A stretch of 64,000 bases of DNA from a virus, in IMG/VR virus record IMGVR_UViG_3300032315_001715, positions 1 through 64,000 of that record; one strand, 5' to 3'. The position numbers and the translations under genes are program-made. Positions 6,907 through 63,068 of this stretch are shown piece by piece. The notes below the pieces were generated by a model, which did not search any database, was not told the origin of the DNA, and saw only the letters and a list, made by a program, of their open reading frames with translations. How positions within the stretch are numbered: the first letter of the stretch is position 1; every line of letters begins with the position of its first letter.

Positions 6907-8208
6907 TCAGATCCTAGCAATTTTAGAGTCACGCCAACCGTTGGCATAACCCTCGCGATAGATACCTTCATCATCACAAGCCGGCGGGGGCTCGTCGTTA
7001 TAAGGCTGATTATTCACAACATTAACCTCGGCCTTGTGGTATCCGACCTCTTCCCAGTCAACGTAGTAGTTGTCGGAATAGCCTGCCTCGTATCCTAGGT
7101 TAAAATCGGAGCTTTCGCCCAGGGGAGTGGTATCGTCGTAAGAGCCCGCAGCGTCACTGTCCTTCTCTGCTTGGATCTGGCCGGCATCGTAACCACGATC
7201 GTAGGCATCCTCCGGGCTTTCGACCGGCTTGCTTGGCACCGAGGCATTGCCATTGCGCACGCCGTAAAAGCCCTTTCGATAAGCCTCAAGATACCGATCA
7301 GCATCCGCACCGGTAAATCGAGCATCCGTACCATTAAACTGACGCCATGCGCCTGCATCACTGCGACCCTGGTCGTAACCAGCAAGGGCCGGGCTAGGCG
7401 TGTTGGTTGCCATCGGCCGGACCTTGGCCGCAGGAGCTGCCGGTGCAACATTGTTCACCTGGGCGGAATACACCGGAGCGGTGAAGTAGTCCCGGCTTTC
7501 ACGATCGTCGCCCTCGTATTCGCCCACGATCTCATAGCGAGCAGCACGACCCTTGGCGTTGTTGTAGTCGCTTGGGATGCTGACCACGTCGGCCGGATCG
7601 ATCTTCACGATCACCACGCGACCCGATCCACCGTGATAGTGCGGCAGATAGCTGAGGCTGCAAAAGTGCAGACCGTAGGAGCAGGTCTGATCCTTGTTGT
7701 CATCGACCTGGTTGCGCGGCATCTCCAGCACCTTGCCAACGCTGTTGTCCATCTTGCCGGTATAGAAGTCTCGGTAGTCACTGTTGACCTTCTTGTAGGC
7801 TAGGAAGTGACCGTCCTCGGTGATGGGGAGCTTGGTGGCCTCGAGGAAGCCATACAGCTCGTCCACCGCACGCTTGCTGGGATTGCGCATGAGGTTGGCC
7901 AGGAAGTTCAGCATGGGCTGGGCATCAAAGCCCTCGCGAACCATCTGCAGGATGCGGTTGACCACCGATCCCTTGACCTCCATGTCACCGTAGAACACCT
8001 GATCGCCATCAACGCGGACCGCGCCCTGGACGAACTTGATCAAGGTGTTCTTGACGTTGATCAACTGCTCAACCAGCACATGATCCTTGGCCTTGAGGGC
8101 CTCCCGGATACCAGCGTAGTTGGCATGATCACCATTGATTGTATGGGTCACACCATCCATCATCACCGTGATGAACGTAGGACCAACGATAGAAGCCGTA
8201 ATGGCCAT
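6907..8208 (-). CDS. rIIB: RIIB-like protein with acidic repeat tail
   Basis: 433 aa. Residues ~95-245 carry the RIIB core as known from T4-like phages: LPITEDGHFLAYKKV, DFYTGKMDNSVG, CSYGLHFCS and VSIPSDYNNAKGRAARYEIVGE. In T4, RIIA and RIIB together affect lysis inhibition and exclusion. The C-terminal ~160 residues are extra: an acidic tail with at least five loose Y-x-x-G-[YFR]-x-x-G units (GYDQGRSDAG, AYDRGYDAG, GYEAGYSD, YREGYANG). Start has AGGAGA 10 bp upstream. Own promoter TTGACA-16-TATACT at 8257-8284 overlaps the rIIA stop. Confidence 0.92.
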   Translation of the reverse strand: MAITASIVGPTFITVMMDGVTHTINGDHANYAGIREALKAKDHVLVEQLINVKNTLIKFVQGAVRVDGDQVFYGDMEVKGSVVNRILQMVREGFDAQPMLNFLANLMRNPSKRAVDELYGFLEATKLPITEDGHFLAYKKVNSDYRDFYTGKMDNSVGKVLEMPRNQVDDNKDQTCSYGLHFCSLSYLPHYHGGSGRVVIVKIDPADVVSIPSDYNNAKGRAARYEIVGEYEGDDRESRDYFTAPVYSAQVNNVAPAAPAAKVRPMATNTPSPALAGYDQGRSDAGAWRQFNGTDARFTGADADRYLEAYRKGFYGVRNGNASVPSKPVESPEDAYDRGYDAGQIQAEKDSDAAGSYDDTTPLGESSDFNLGYEAGYSDNYYVDWEEVGYHKAEVNVVNNQPYNDEPPPACDDEGIYREGYANGWRDSKIARI

Positions 8209-8256: not shown

Positions 8257-8284
8257 AGTATAGCACACCTTAGTGATGTGTCAA
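8257..8284 (-). promoter_or_regulatory. Sigma70-type promoter of rIIB
   Basis: TTGACA, 16-bp spacer, TATACT on the minus strand, of the same type as the promoters of the right-hand gene array. It overlaps the last codon of rIIA. Confidence 0.8.
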
Positions 8285-10452
8285 GCGGAGATCACTTCTT
8301 TGATCGCCGTTTCAAGCTCCAGTGCAGCCAGTCGATCGCACTGGTTGATGTAGTCCTGCACCTTGCGGGTCAGTGCCGGAGCATCAAATCGGCTGCCGTA
8401 GCCGTAATGGCTGCGATCAAGCACGATGTCCAGCATTGGATAGGCTGCCGTCACCTCGCCGTAGAGATCCTTGGCATTCACCGATGGCAACACCGTTTGC
8501 ACCGTGTTACCAAAGATCTTTGCCAGCTCGATCAGCTGTTGATCCTTGACGGCCTTGTCATTGGCCGCGGAAAGCTGTCGCATTGCCACTGCAAATCTAC
8601 CCAACGGGCCATTCGATCGATCCAGCCGCCAGTTATTGGTCCACAGTCCACGATCACGAGCCGAGCTAGCAACTTCATTGAAGTGTGCGCTGTCAGCCAC
8701 CGTTTGCATCACCGACGGCTTCAACCGCTTGGTTACCTCGTCTCGAACCACGCTCCAGACGTCCCTCCAATCTGCACTGTCCTCAACCTTCTTTTTGAAT
8801 GCACCGCGCGGCGCATAGATCGTATCGGTTTCCTTGAGAATGCCCAGGGACTTGGCCAAGGCAACCGTGCGTTCGAGCTTGTTGCCATGACCTAGACCGC
8901 CATCCGGACCTCGAACGTCCCAGTGATCTAGCAGCACATAGATACCGCCGTCCTCGAGGGTAACGTCCACCGGCTTCCATGCCTTGGTGTTGGACCCCAC
9001 TCCTCGATAGGACATCATGCTGATCTTGGTGCGTGCCGCGGAAGGCCGCTTGGGCAATGCGCTGGCCATCTCAAAGGACGGATTACCCAGGATCTTTACG
9101 ACGTCGTCCTGGGTCTTCTTAGCAGTGGTTAGATCAAAGAAATAAATCTCTGCCGAGGCCGCGCTGGTCTCGATCAGGTAATTCACCCGGCTAAGGGCAC
9201 CCTTGTCGAGATCATTAAAGATGAATCGCGCACGATCCGAGCAGCGAATGGTGAGATCGGCATGGCAGGTCTGCTGCCGAACACGCTTGTAGTGTGCGTT
9301 ATTGGCATAGACATCGGGAGATTTTCCTGCCGTGGCATCCCAGATATCCTGAGTTTTCAACGTGACATGCGCTTCCTTGATGAGCTGGTTCTTCCACTTG
9401 AGCCCATGGTTGCCAAATGCCTTTTCAAATTCCCAGCGGAACCCGCTGTCATTACCAAAGATGTTTGAAAAGATCTTGCGTGCTTCCCATTCGGTTGCGG
9501 CACCAGCCATTTGCTTTTCAAAGACCTGACCAAGCTCGTTCAGCACGACATCCAATCGTGCGACGATGCTCTTCTGCGTGCGTTCGTCATATCCCAGGGC
9601 TTCGCGGGAAGCGGCGATCTCAAGATCGCCGATGCCAAAATCCACAACCAGCGGCGTTTCGAGGATCGCGGTCTGTGCCTTGCTGAGGCCATTGATCGAA
9701 TTGCGATCCAACGGATACGCCACCCGCCCCATCAAAGCCACCGGACGATTCTGCTCCCGGGAATAATAGTCGTCATTCTTGCGGAGTATCCGCCAGCCAT
9801 TGCCTTCAAATGCAATCTTAGGTTCGGAAATTTCCAGCTTGTTGACACCGGTGATCTCCGGACGAACGGAAAACCAACGGAATACCATGGCGGCTTTTTC
9901 GGCAAAGCGACGCATGTCGTCCTGCTTGACCGGCATCTTCACCGTGACGCCATTGGGTTCCGAGGTAGGCTTTTCTCCCAGCAACGCCACGCTGGGCATG
10001 CCAGACTCGTTCTTGTACATGGAATACTGGCGTTCAATGCCATTCTTGATGGCGGTGACATCAAACGCATCCACGTAGCTGAACGGGCTCTTGCAGCCCA
10101 ATCCCAGCTGACCGATCAACTCGTTGCTGTGGATCTTGGTGCTGGCACCATAGGTGGTAAACGTGCTGATGACCTCCTGATGATTCATGCCGATGCCAAA
10201 GTCTCGCACGTGGAAGAAGGGCTCAAACATCGTGGGTAGATGCACTTGGATGGGCACGCCGGCCTTGCCGACCTCAACATGGCTGTCCACCGCGTTGCAG
10301 CTCAGTTCGCGGATGATGCTTTGGATCTTGTCCGAGTAGAGGCCGTCCGATAGGATCTTGGCCATCTTGGCATTGAAGATGATACCATAGGCACCATCTG
10401 ATGCAAGTCCATCTCGCTCAACGACGGTCTCATTCGTAGAATTGATCTTCAC
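8281..10452 (-). CDS. rIIA: RIIA-like protein, GHKL ATPase fold
   Basis: 723 aa, close to the T4 RIIA length. N-terminal motifs fit a GHKL (Hsp90/histidine-kinase-like) ATP site: IIRELSCNAVDSH (N box), VRDFGIGM (G1), TTYGASTK and IGQLGLGCKSPF (G2). The GTG at 10452 is chosen because AAGGAA lies 7 bp upstream and the promoter TTGACC-16-TATGTA (10487-10514) would start transcription just before it; longer in-frame starts lie inside or upstream of this promoter. Partner of rIIB immediately downstream. Confidence 0.9.
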   Translation of the reverse strand: MKINSTNETVVERDGLASDGAYGIIFNAKMAKILSDGLYSDKIQSIIRELSCNAVDSHVEVGKAGVPIQVHLPTMFEPFFHVRDFGIGMNHQEVISTFTTYGASTKIHSNELIGQLGLGCKSPFSYVDAFDVTAIKNGIERQYSMYKNESGMPSVALLGEKPTSEPNGVTVKMPVKQDDMRRFAEKAAMVFRWFSVRPEITGVNKLEISEPKIAFEGNGWRILRKNDDYYSREQNRPVALMGRVAYPLDRNSINGLSKAQTAILETPLVVDFGIGDLEIAASREALGYDERTQKSIVARLDVVLNELGQVFEKQMAGAATEWEARKIFSNIFGNDSGFRWEFEKAFGNHGLKWKNQLIKEAHVTLKTQDIWDATAGKSPDVYANNAHYKRVRQQTCHADLTIRCSDRARFIFNDLDKGALSRVNYLIETSAASAEIYFFDLTTAKKTQDDVVKILGNPSFEMASALPKRPSAARTKISMMSYRGVGSNTKAWKPVDVTLEDGGIYVLLDHWDVRGPDGGLGHGNKLERTVALAKSLGILKETDTIYAPRGAFKKKVEDSADWRDVWSVVRDEVTKRLKPSVMQTVADSAHFNEVASSARDRGLWTNNWRLDRSNGPLGRFAVAMRQLSAANDKAVKDQQLIELAKIFGNTVQTVLPSVNAKDLYGEVTAAYPMLDIVLDRSHYGYGSRFDAPALTRKVQDYINQCDRLAALELETAIKEVISA

Positions 10453-10486
10453 CTGTGGTTCCTTGTTGTGCTGTTCATGTAGCGCA

Positions 10487-10514
10487 TACATAGCATGCTT
10501 TGCGCAATGGTCAA
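10487..10514 (-). promoter_or_regulatory. Sigma70-type promoter of rIIA
   Basis: TTGACC, 16-bp spacer, TATGTA on the minus strand. It supports the GTG start of rIIA. A weaker divergent plus-strand signal (TTGCGC-17-TGTATG at 10500-10528) could serve the gene at 10557. Confidence 0.7.
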
Positions 10515-10556
10515 TGAAATATTGTATGGAATTGCGAAATCCACGCATAATTTTGC

Positions 10557-31149: not shown

Positions 31150-31220
31150 CGGCTGATCGCGGCACGACGGCGATTTAATTGGGCCGGGCAGATGATTACA
31201 ATCCAGCAATCCAGCGTTCA

Positions 31221-31322
31221 GGGTGTTACCAGCACCACACCACCCTGTTACCGGTACCAGGCTGTTACCAAAACCACCATGGCCTGTTACCAAAACCACC
31301 CTGTTACCGGCACCACACCACC
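31221..31322 (-). repeat. Five GGTAACAG-type repeats
   Basis: On the minus strand GGTAACA recurs five times with 17-25 bp spacing, linked by GGTGGT-rich segments. They lie downstream of the promoter at 31341-31369 and contain no ORF longer than about 10 codons after a start codon. Confidence 0.7.
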
Positions 31323-31383: not shown

Positions 31384-31479
31384 CGTTACGTCCACGCAAT
31401 AAAATGGTCAGGTTTCGGCAACCTCCCGGTGTCTCGTTGCCCTATGTCCGCATAATAGCACGTCTCGCGGCGGTGTCAA
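31384..31479 (-). ncRNA. Structured RNA element, copy A
   Basis: Promoter TTGACA-16-TATTAT (31452-31479), then a conserved ~60-nt transcript without ORF. Hairpin 1 pairs GGCAAC with GTTGCC around GAGACACCGGGAG; hairpin 2 pairs around GTGG near the 3' end. Five other close copies share the sequence. Confidence 0.65.
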
Positions 31480-31544: not shown

Positions 31545-31625
31545 CGGTTTTAAAGCCGCTACACGGGGGTCAACCACCAGGGCCGCTACTAGGGGTGCAG
31601 GCCATTGCGGAGGCGGCTGTACGGC
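31545..31625. repeat. GC-rich dyad block H1
   Basis: TTTTAAAGCCGCTACACGGGGGTC is shared with blocks at 34868, 42312, 52370, 55672, 58863 and 62956. Here followed by GGGCCGCTACTAGG. Lies downstream of RNA copy B. Confidence 0.6.
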
Positions 31626-31637
31626 GGTCTGTGTCGC

Positions 31638-31733
31638 TGTTGCGATCACGCAACGATAAGGTCAGAGTTCGGCAACCTCCCGGTGTCTCGCTGCCCTATG
31701 CGCGCATAATAGCACGTCCTCGGCTAGTGTCAA
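31638..31733 (-). ncRNA. Structured RNA element, copy B
   Basis: Promoter TTGACA-16-TATTAT at 31706-31733. Hairpin 1 GGCAGC/GTTGCC, hairpin 2 GTTGCG-TGAT-CGCAAC. This copy shows both helices most clearly. Confidence 0.7.
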
Positions 31734-34867: not shown

Positions 34868-34975
34868 CCGGAACCAAACCGCGGCGTTAAACGCGGTTTT
34901 AAGCACCCTACACCGGGGTCTAGCACCATGGCCGCTACCATGACCGCGGACAGGGACGGAAGCGCTTGTAGCACG
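34868..34975. repeat. GC-rich dyad block H2
   Basis: GTTAAACGCGGTTTTAAGCA, CCCTACACCGGGGTCTAGC: a variant of the H block, upstream of the Gp88-like gene and downstream of the divergent RNA copy at 34998. Confidence 0.55.
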
Positions 34976-34997
34976 CTCTATGCGGTCATCTTGGTCT

Positions 34998-35100
34998 TGC
35001 AACGATTTGGTCAGGATTCGGCTGGGCATGCCCACTGGTCGAGCTGGCGATCACCCGTTCGACATCATCCATGCATAGCATGGTCAGCACCATTGGTCAA
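34998..35100 (-). ncRNA. Divergent structured RNA element, copy G
   Basis: Promoter TTGACC-17-TATGCA at 35072-35100; the transcript keeps only the 3' motif (GCCGAATCCTGACC, ATCGTTGC) of the RNA family. No ORF. Low similarity in the 5' half. Confidence 0.45.
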
Positions 35101-36579: not shown

Positions 36580-36666
36580 GTTGCATGCTCCCTTCGTTGC
36601 CAGGGCATTGTAGCACGGCTACCATTACCGTCAACCAAAATCTTTCGAAATGGCCGGAGAATTTAT

Positions 36667-36784
36667 CGTTGCGCTGTTGCAACGTCGGCGTCAGGACTCG
36701 GTCCGCGCATGGCGTGTGCTGCGATGCCGATCGGCTGGTGCAACGTCGTACCGGGAACATAGCATGCTCCCGGTACCCTGTCAA
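36667..36784 (-). ncRNA. Divergent structured RNA element, copy H
   Basis: Promoter TTGACA-17-TATGTT (36756-36784) with its -10 inside the inverted repeat GTACCGGGA/TCCCGGTAC. The transcript ends in GAGTCCTGAC and a CGTTGC/GCAACG hairpin as in the RNA family. No ORF. Confidence 0.45.
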
Positions 36785-41950: not shown

Positions 41951-42047
41951 TCGTTTTGATCACGCAACATTAACATGAGATTTCGGCGTCCTCCCGGTGT
42001 CTCGCTGCCCTATGTGCCTACTATAGCACGTCAGCAGCCGCTGTCAA
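41951..42047 (-). ncRNA. Structured RNA element, copy C
   Basis: Promoter TTGACA-16-TATAGT at 42020-42047, then the conserved GGCAGCGAGACACCGGGAGG core. Hairpin 1 is weaker here (GGC/GCC only); the next gene's promoter follows directly. Confidence 0.65.
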
Positions 42048-42316: not shown

Positions 42317-42440
42317 CAACGCTATTTAACGCCGCTACACGGGGGTCGCCATCTTGCCGCTAGCTATGCAGCGACCCCCGTGCTCGACCCCCGTGTAGCG
42401 CGCTTAAAACCGCTCTAGCGACCCCTAAAACCCAGGGGTG
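42312..42440. repeat. GC-rich dyad block H3
   Basis: Contains the core in both orientations (GCCGCTACACGGGGGTC and GACCCCCGTGTAGCG) and a GGGGGTCGC/GCGACCCCC stem. It separates the 42441 and 42044 genes. Confidence 0.65.
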
Positions 42441-44227: not shown

Positions 44228-44314
44228 TGGTGAACCCGGTCGGGATCGAACCGACTGTGGGATTTCTCCCGAGAGATTAAAAGTCTCTTGCCATACCGTT
44301 ACGGCGGCGGGTCC
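44228..44314 (-). tRNA. tRNA-Lys (UUU) with long variable arm
   Basis: 87 nt. Acceptor GGACCCG pairs with CGGGTTC, CCA is encoded, T-stem GTCGG/CCGAC holds TTCGATC, and the anticodon arm AGAGA-CTTTTAA-TCTCT gives UUU. Between the anticodon and T stems are 16 nt with a GGGA-GAAA-TCCC hairpin, as in class II tRNAs, which is unusual for Lys. Expressed with the 44365 gene. Confidence 0.85.
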
Positions 44315-51933: not shown

Positions 51934-52185
51934 ATGGCAACGCTTTTCGCTACGCTGCGCATCAAGCGCAAGCCCACCAGCAATGACATCGTGTGCCTCA
52001 AGCTTCGCGTCGCGCACGCGCTGCCCGTCCACACCTATCCCCTGCACGACGAGGACATCACGGACCGCGCGACCATGGACGTGGTCACCCGCACGCTGGA
52101 AGAGCTGCGCCTGCGCTACAAGTGCAAGGACGTTGAGCTGGACGTGAAGAAGGACGTGCTGAAGCTGCTGGAGCGACAGGGCTAG
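51934..52185 (+). CDS. Unknown plus-strand small protein
   Basis: 83 aa, mixed (TLRIKRKPTSNDIVCLKLRV; KCKDVELDVKKDVLKLL). ACGGAG 9 bp upstream. One of only three plus-strand genes in the right part. Function unknown. Confidence 0.75.
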   Translation: MATLFATLRIKRKPTSNDIVCLKLRVAHALPVHTYPLHDEDITDRATMDVVTRTLEELRLRYKCKDVELDVKKDVLKLLERQG

Positions 52186-52192
52186 CACATCG

Positions 52193-52254
52193 CACCCAGC
52201 AGAGCAAGGCAAAAGATCGCTTGCTCTGCTGGGTGGATGATGCTGTATTTTTTT
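52193..52254 (+). terminator. Rho-independent terminator
   Basis: CACCCAGCAGAGCAAG with exact complement, then a T7 run after 13 nt. The right arm contains a TTGCTC box spaced 17 bp from TGTATT, so it may also be a promoter toward RNA copy D. Confidence 0.8.
52221..52249 (+). promoter_or_regulatory. Convergent promoter facing RNA copy D
   Basis: TTGCTC, 17 bp, TGTATT inside the terminator; it would transcribe the antisense of copy D. Confidence 0.4.
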
Positions 52255-52349
52255 GTTGCTGTATCGCAACGCCGAGGTCAGAGTTCGGCAATCTCCCGGT
52301 GTCTCGCTGCCCTATGCGCGTATAATAGCACGATCGCACATCCTGTCAA
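52255..52349 (-). ncRNA. Structured RNA element, copy D
   Basis: Promoter TTGACA-16-TATTAT at 52322-52349; conserved GGCAGCGAGACACCGGGAG core and 3' hairpin GTTGC/GCAAC. Confidence 0.65.
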
Positions 52350-52369: not shown

Positions 52370-52486
52370 AAACCCGTTTAAACGCTGCTACACGGGCTTG
52401 GATTCAGGGCCGCTATAGCACTAGCGGCCCCCAAGCTAGACCCCGCTGCACGGTCGTCTCTGCGGGAGCTAGCCGGGGTTTTGGTG
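52370..52486. repeat. GC-rich dyad block H4
   Basis: GTTTAAACGCTGCTACACGGG, then hairpin GGGCCGCTA/TAGCGGCCC and CTAGACCCCGCTGCACGG. Between copy D and the SprT-like gene. Confidence 0.6.
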
Positions 52487-57609: not shown

Positions 57610-57704
57610 GTTACGATCCCGCAACGATGGGATCAGGTTTCGGCGTCCTCCCGGTGTCTCGTTGCCCTATGTCCGTATAATAGCACGCTCGCACACGCCG
57701 TCAA
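57610..57704 (-). ncRNA. Structured RNA element, copy E
   Basis: Promoter TTGACG-16-TATTAT at 57677-57704; GGCAACGAGACACCGGGAGG core and 3' hairpin GTTGCG/CGTAAC. Confidence 0.65.
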
Positions 57705-58291: not shown

Positions 58292-58332
58292 GTCCAGCAA
58301 TGCAAGCAAACAAAACGCTTGCATTGCTGGAC
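58292..58332 (+). terminator. Terminator that carries the next -35 box
   Basis: GTCCAGCAATGCAAGC and complement, 9-nt loop. The right arm contains TTGCAT, the -35 of the promoter at 58319-58347. Confidence 0.7.
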
Positions 58333-58380: not shown

Positions 58381-58659
58381 ATGACGAAGGTGACGCTGGA
58401 AGTGGTTGACATGGGCGTGCGCTATGTGCATAGCAATGGGCGCGTGCTGGACATTGTGGGCGAGGCAAGCGACGGCGAATGGTTTGTTTACGCTGACGCA
58501 ACGGATGACGCTGAGTGCTTGGCGCAGGGCTTTTACGAGGAGGACGCTGAGGGCGAAGGCACGTTTTACACAACGCATGACGGGCTTGAGCTGAACACTG
58601 GGCTGGCGGTGGCGGGCGACGAGCTGGAGCTGCTGGCGGTGGAACTGCTGGAAGCATAG
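58381..58659 (+). CDS. Small acidic plus-strand protein
   Basis: 92 aa. KVTLEVVDMGVRYVHSNGRV, DIVGEASDGEWFVYADATDD; acidic C-terminus. GGAG 9 bp upstream. Confidence 0.7.
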   Translation: MTKVTLEVVDMGVRYVHSNGRVLDIVGEASDGEWFVYADATDDAECLAQGFYEEDAEGEGTFYTTHDGLELNTGLAVAGDELELLAVELLEA

Positions 58660-58670
58660 CACGCAACACG

Positions 58671-58713
58671 CACTAGCGCAAGCAAAAAGAACGCTTGCGC
58701 TAGTGCTGTTTTT
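58671..58713 (+). terminator. Terminator with T tract
   Basis: CACTAGCGCAAGC/GCTTGCGCTAGTG, then CTGTTTTT. Its right arm includes TTGCGC of a third plus promoter. Confidence 0.8.
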
Positions 58714-58754: not shown

Positions 58755-58849
58755 GTTTTGCCAGCGCAACAATGGGGTCAGGGCTCGACAGCCTCCCGGT
58801 GTCTCGCTGCCTTATGCGCGTATAATAGCACGCCTAGCAGCAGCGTCAA
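58755..58849 (-). ncRNA. Structured RNA element, copy F
   Basis: Promoter TTGACG-16-TATTAT at 58822-58849. Hairpin 1 is GGCAGC/GCTGTC, a compensatory change from the other copies (GTTGCC). Confidence 0.65.
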
Positions 58850-58862
58850 GCGAAAAAACACA

Positions 58863-58977
58863 ACGCAAGCGGAGTCGTAGACGGCGCTGTAGCACTGGGA
58901 CGGCAGGGCCGCTGTAGTGGTAGCGGCCCTGGTGCTTGACCCCCGTGTAGCGGCGTTAAAACCGCCCTAGTGGGGTG
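58863..58977. repeat. GC-rich dyad block H6
   Basis: AGGGCCGCT/AGCGGCCCT hairpin, then GACCCCCGTGTAGCGGCGTTAAAACC. Immediately after the stop of the 58978 gene. Confidence 0.6.
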
Positions 58978-62955: not shown

Positions 62956-63068
62956 GTCCCGCGTGCAACGCCGCTGCAACCCCCTCGGCATCTCTCCGTG
63001 GTCACGCTAGCGGCCACCATGTTTGACCCCGGTGTAGCGGCGTTAAAACCCGCCTAGCACCGGGGATA
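62956..63068. repeat. GC-rich dyad block H7
   Basis: GACCCCGGTGTAGCGGCGTTAAAACC, CGCTAGCGGCC; between the 63069 gene and the promoter of 62662. Confidence 0.6.

Follow-up and report, generated by a model that had tools for sequence, protein, structure and literature searches.

Several small regulatory RNAs are known from phages, among them OOP and PreS of lambda, VpdS of VP882, c4 of P1/P7 and sar of P22 (PMC12197685). All are short noncoding RNAs transcribed from phage DNA; for several, base pairing with mRNAs of the phage or the host has been demonstrated or suggested. The examples described in this source are single loci, mostly of temperate phages. T4-like phages also carry noncoding RNA genes, such as CfrI and other Rfam-annotated RNAs of cyanophages (PMC9964418). 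Other noncoding elements of phages lie close to promoters. The putL and putR sites of HK022 (~70 nt) lie near early promoters, can form two stem-loops and act in cis on the polymerase reading the early operons (PMC9378689), while RNA anti-CRISPRs are solitary repeat units, often right behind a promoter (PMC10651486). Here, we describe an element of a large T4-like phage that appears to work most like the phage-encoded small RNAs of PMC12197685, but that occurs in about eight paralogous copies per genome and has candidate targets only.

The window, that is the whole stretch of 64,000 nt that was analyzed, corresponds to bases 1-64000 of a 452,799-bp virus record. This jumbo phage is classed as T4-like from its rIIA (8281-10548) and rIIB (6907-8208) homologs, and the named phages with the nearest terminase are Sinorhizobium phage Phosso (51%) and Agrobacterium phage Atu_ph07 (49%). 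From ~26 kb on, the GC content rises from ~50% to ~60%, compared with a mean of 49% over the whole genome, and positions 26000-64000 form a GC-rich (~60%), promoter-dense island of small genes with ~50% GC to its left. Between 31 and 64 kb, small minus-strand genes predominate, most with their own promoter and a Shine-Dalgarno sequence, and 68 promoter-like sites are found where shuffled sequence gives ~8.5. The region is labeled early from this organization and its host-type promoters. A tRNA-Lys (TTT) gene (44228-44314, minus strand) lies among its small genes.

Eight copies of the element are present at 31-59 kb of this region, all on the minus strand, each behind a promoter and without an open reading frame (Table 1). 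The sequence-only reading had placed six close copies (A-F) and two divergent ones (G and H, at 34998 and 36667) behind promoters, and we recover them all. The close copies share GGCARCGAGACACCGGGAG (six matches versus 0.01 expected), and G and H are tied to them by the 3' core CCGARnYCTGAC-N5-CGTTGC (seven matches to the core pattern versus 0.14 expected). Promoters that look genuine, of the form TTGAC-N16-TGCTATTAT, precede the copies in this promoter-dense region; copy G sits just past an intrinsic terminator (35135-35106). A search with R1, a 62-nt RNA model running from the start region to the end of the 3' hairpin, gave no further scoring copy in the rest of the 452-kb genome. A second assembly, IMGVR_UViG_3300037189_024364, carries the same copies but is near-identical and thus yields no comparative information.

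Table 1. Positions in the window of the RNA copies, their promoters and the hairpins that follow two of them
Feature	Position	Strand	R1 score (bits)	Remarks
RNA copy A	31385..31446	-	67.2	start region to 3' hairpin end (62 nt)
Promoter of copy A	31452..31479	-		TTGACA-16-TATTAT, TG extended
RNA copy B	31639..31700	-	72.9	
Promoter of copy B	31706..31733	-		
RNA copy C	41953..42014	-	65.5	CTCATG replacing CTGACC
Promoter of copy C	42020..42047	-		TTGACA-16-TATAGT
RNA copy D	52255..52316	-	65.2	convergent with + gene 51934-52185
Promoter of copy D	52322..52349	-		
Strong hairpin 3' of copy D	52193..52235	-		before convergent gene
RNA copy E	57610..57671	-	68.7	
Promoter of copy E	57677..57704	-		
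RNA copy F	58755..58816	-	63.4	convergent with + gene 58381-58659
Promoter of copy F	58822..58849	-		
Strong hairpin 3' of copy F	58670..58706	-		
Divergent copy G, 3' core	34986..35037	-	14.2	model 28-57; core match
Weak promoter of copy G	35072..35100	-		TTGACC-17-TATGCA; read from sequence
Divergent copy H, 3' core	36666..36717	-	12.1	model 29-62; core match; GUUGC/GCAAC hairpin
Promoter of copy H	36756..36784	-		TTGACA-17-TATGTT

The promoter-driven family is strengthened by an independent relative, represented in IMG/VR by two assemblies of one virus (3300025379_000052, 29 kb, and 3300006115_000085, 23 kb). Its contigs were found through an early-gene-leader pattern and not through the RNA, and its early proteins are 30-84% identical to those of the window phage, in a partly shuffled order. 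The RNA model built on the window matches the relative at E values of 3.5e-5 to 8e-5, and a 13-member model (R2) finds four more copies outside its training set (E 1.4e-8 to 1.3e-7), giving eight in 3300025379_000052, some with intrinsic terminators. At 4800-6900 of the relative's contig L149, five copies are interleaved with small genes on the opposite strand, and these genes have promoter and leader sequence in common with the 5' ends of the RNAs. In a third contig, IMGVR_UViG_3300013094_002915 (L163), the core GCCGAAACCTGATGCCAATGTTGC forms the end of a small gene together with its 3' UTR; this copy has no promoter of its own and is distant from any upstream promoter.

An Rfam search, which the sequence-only reading had proposed, returned no family from Rfam 15 at the gathering cut-off for the element, the window or the relatives, the window's only match being the tRNA; permissive searches gave only matches far under the cut-off. 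The element differs in this from CfrI-type RNAs. There was no DNA similarity among annotated phages and plasmids, and no convincing copy in Phosso, Atu_ph07, PA5oct and 27 terminase-bearing contigs; weak matches in Phosso and Atu_ph07 were discarded as neither promoter-proximal nor core-like. Core-pattern matches in bacterial genomes (n = 64) reach at best 27.5 bits despite preselection by the pattern and were treated as chance; of five inspected singly, two lie within very long open frames and none has the family promoter. Core- or promoter-pattern matches in other viral contigs were likewise put down to chance, L163 excepted.

Across 17 copies, the shared part consists of GCCGAAnYCU, 9-10 bases, GUUGC and a short hairpin whose best form is GUUGCr-N4-yGCAAC. 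A conserved core thus exists as had been proposed, but it is this 3' half and not the 5' block that the earlier reading put first. Within it, CTGA is dispensable, being CTAA or CTAT in four copies of the relative and CTCA in copy C. In 14 of the 17 copies, GCCGA begins 32-34 nt from the -10 element; the distance is 53 nt in copy H and ~49 nt in copy G, the latter a hand count from a weak -10. The mRNAs of these phages have their ribosome-binding site in the same place: of 28 TGnTATTAT promoters in the early regions of both phages, 12 are followed by the core at this distance and 13 by a Shine-Dalgarno sequence and start codon, so that the core stands where a translation start would be.

In a gapless alignment of copies A-F, identity is at background upstream of -40 (0.20-0.28), 48% over most of the -35/-10 spacer and 72-73% around the -10. 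It reaches 91-100% from +1 to +20, 76-81% from +21 to +40 and 57-62% from +41 to +60, and is near background beyond +70. Conservation wholly explained by the promoter, which would have undone the original proposal, is not what we find: identity stays above background through +60 and is weak in the spacer, so the promoter alone cannot account for it.

The sequence-only reading had described a structured family with compensatory changes in a first hairpin and a 3' hairpin kept with different sequences. Structure with compensatory change is not supported: covariation never rose above controls. Copies A-F contain zero pairs of hairpin 1 changed on both sides, its helix is interrupted in C and E, with fraying in D, and the hairpin is not kept in G, H or the relatives; RNAalifold folds A-F differently, with no covariation in that fold either. 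The 3' hairpin is indeed kept in most copies: the 17 copies keep 83% of its cells paired, compared with at most 54% in slid versions. Its covariation, however, does not exceed that of shuffles. In five copies, one pair has gone from G-C to A-U, a change on both sides, and an equal score arose in 134 of 500 shuffles of the 17 copies. Neither hairpin showed a significant signal in an arm-swapping energy test (0.12 and 0.13). The predicted RNA structure is plausible.

The claim that the copies contain no open reading frame is confirmed, as the synonymous fraction is not above that of column shuffles (0.72 of shuffles were as high). A tiny-peptide reading, based on two apparent frame patterns (GCC GAA NNC TGA and TTG CGN ...), was rejected on this ground and because four copies of the relative lack the TGA. 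A guide-RNA reading, with a conserved 5' scaffold and a variable 3' end, was rejected since four relative copies terminate without a guide-like variable stretch.

No copy is followed directly by a start codon, and none is thus the direct leader of a gene. B and the relative's 4943 and 5680 are followed by another copy; A, C, E, G, H, 17791 and 6829 by a separate gene or promoter; and D, F, 3072, 5109 and 5958 by a convergent gene. At the sequence level, the copies have their own promoter and lack an open reading frame, as expected of a phage small regulatory RNA. A defined 3' end is clear for four of the relative's copies (3072, 4943, 5109 and 5958), which run into hairpin and T-run terminators located 80-105 nt past the start region. 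The window phage's copies have no proper intrinsic terminator, D and F being followed at similar distances by strong hairpins without a T-run. On the plus strand, the hairpin beyond copy F has TGTTTTTG after it and so resembles a terminator of the convergent gene.

Several repeats accompany the copies. Long hairpins with CAAGCG..TCTTTT..GCTTG-type loops (58292-58332, 58670-58706 and 52193-52235 of the window) separate convergent or tandem plus-strand genes from RNA copies. A second intergenic repeat with internal dyads, GACCCCCGTGTAGCGGCGTTAAAACCGC, often stands beside a TAGCGGCC hairpin; it occurs in the window at 31545-31568(-), 34894-34917(-), 42321-42344(-), 42389-42412(+), 52374-52397(-), 58941-58964(+) and 63028-63051(+), near copies A/B, C, D, F and G, with two occurrences directly after stop codons. 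Similar sequences are found near the relative's RNA copies, and the repeat is possibly a terminator or REP-like element. Just downstream of copy A, at 31210-31320, are iteron-like direct repeats CCTGTTACC(A/G)..ACCAC.

The element is very probably a genuine family of RNA genes. The family is new, while its kind, the phage small RNA, is already known. Our preferred reading, held with moderate confidence and drawn from the sequence, is that of a multicopy paralogous family of early, trans-acting small noncoding RNAs. Host sigma-70 polymerase would presumably transcribe each copy soon after infection from the extended -10 promoter, giving an RNA of ~60-110 nt with a variable or lineage-specific 5' part, GCCGAAnYCU at ~+27 and GUUGC opening a short 3' hairpin. 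We infer that this RNA accumulates, acts in trans and has pairing partners, most likely by base pairing with mRNA leaders through its exposed stretches GCCGAA and UUGC. Trans action is preferred mainly because a cis-acting leader would have no target in the convergent cases. Sequence variants behind strong promoters would make for a high dose, with target ranges that differ slightly between copies. The phage encodes no Hfq or CsrA homolog detectable at E 0.001, so a chaperone, if needed at all, must be the host's.

The best candidate targets would be the phage's own early mRNAs, with GCAA-rich leaders ahead of their ribosome-binding sites. Among 60 translation-initiation regions of this region's genes, GCAAC, complementary to the invariant GUUGC, is found 25 times, versus 10 expected from the region, but GCAAG, able to pair with part of the core only, shows an equal enrichment. 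In all eight window copies (single-copy shuffle fractions 0.007-0.27) and in six of seven copies of the relative (0.05-0.74), the 3' part of the RNA scores above its shuffle mean for pairing with early leaders; these tests are not independent since the copies are homologous. The early leaders moreover share a consensus, which weakens the signal. These comparisons point weakly to mRNA-leader pairing as the target step.

The layout also invites readings in which the transcript acts in cis or does not matter at all. A nascent-RNA signal for antitermination or anti-pausing, like HK022 put, which the element resembles in size, would be expected directly after early promoters at a constant offset, in several copies and with two possible stem-loops, as found here, and intrinsic terminators in the early region are no more common than by chance (13 versus 12.9 expected). 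A put site, however, lies upstream of a transcription unit that is read through, whereas several relative copies reach intrinsic terminators within 80-105 nt and then convergent genes; D and F also face convergent genes, the genes that follow have promoters of their own, and no stem is demonstrably conserved. We consider such a signal improbable. We give a similarly low probability to the core being a DNA site, either an operator or a polymerase-contact site downstream of the start. Gapless conservation, the fixed spacing from the -10 and the fact that GTTGC-N6-GCAAC is also an inverted repeat in DNA would suit it, but G and H lie ~49 and 53 nt from their -10, the L163 copy is at a gene end far from an upstream promoter, and one half-site is kept while the other decays.

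An RNA decoy against a host defense or RNA-binding protein, such as a repeat-mimicking anti-CRISPR, a mimic of a type III antitoxin or a sponge for a host small RNA or protein, would explain a strong promoter before a solitary repeated unit in the early region, and titration fits many near-identical copies. The likeness to RNA anti-CRISPRs is one of layout; the element differs from them in being multicopy within one genome, and it matches no Rfam family. A decoy is in our view unlikely. Finally, the copies might be debris, duplicated promoter-leader segments that have lost their genes and are alike through recent duplication or recombination. They do occupy gaps among shuffled small genes, and the relative's 5' parts look like gene leaders of the same genome (TATTATGCACTTGTTAAACAGCAACA). 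Yet the core is common to phages whose early proteins are only 30-84% identical, with flanks at background. We consider debris very unlikely.

Taken together, our analysis favors early, trans-acting small RNAs. In a farther-reaching version, which we regard as doubtful, dose-driven multicopy small RNAs would give this jumbo-phage lineage global post-transcriptional control over its early genes. Such RNAs would have the build of early mRNAs as far as the ribosome-binding site, with the core taking the place of a translation start, and would pair with, or mimic, the GCAA-rich leader common to dozens of early mRNAs. Characterized small RNAs of large lytic phages are few. A conserved multicopy family among their early genes would offer a handle on the post-transcriptional control of these phages, and the shared core a probe for further members of the family.
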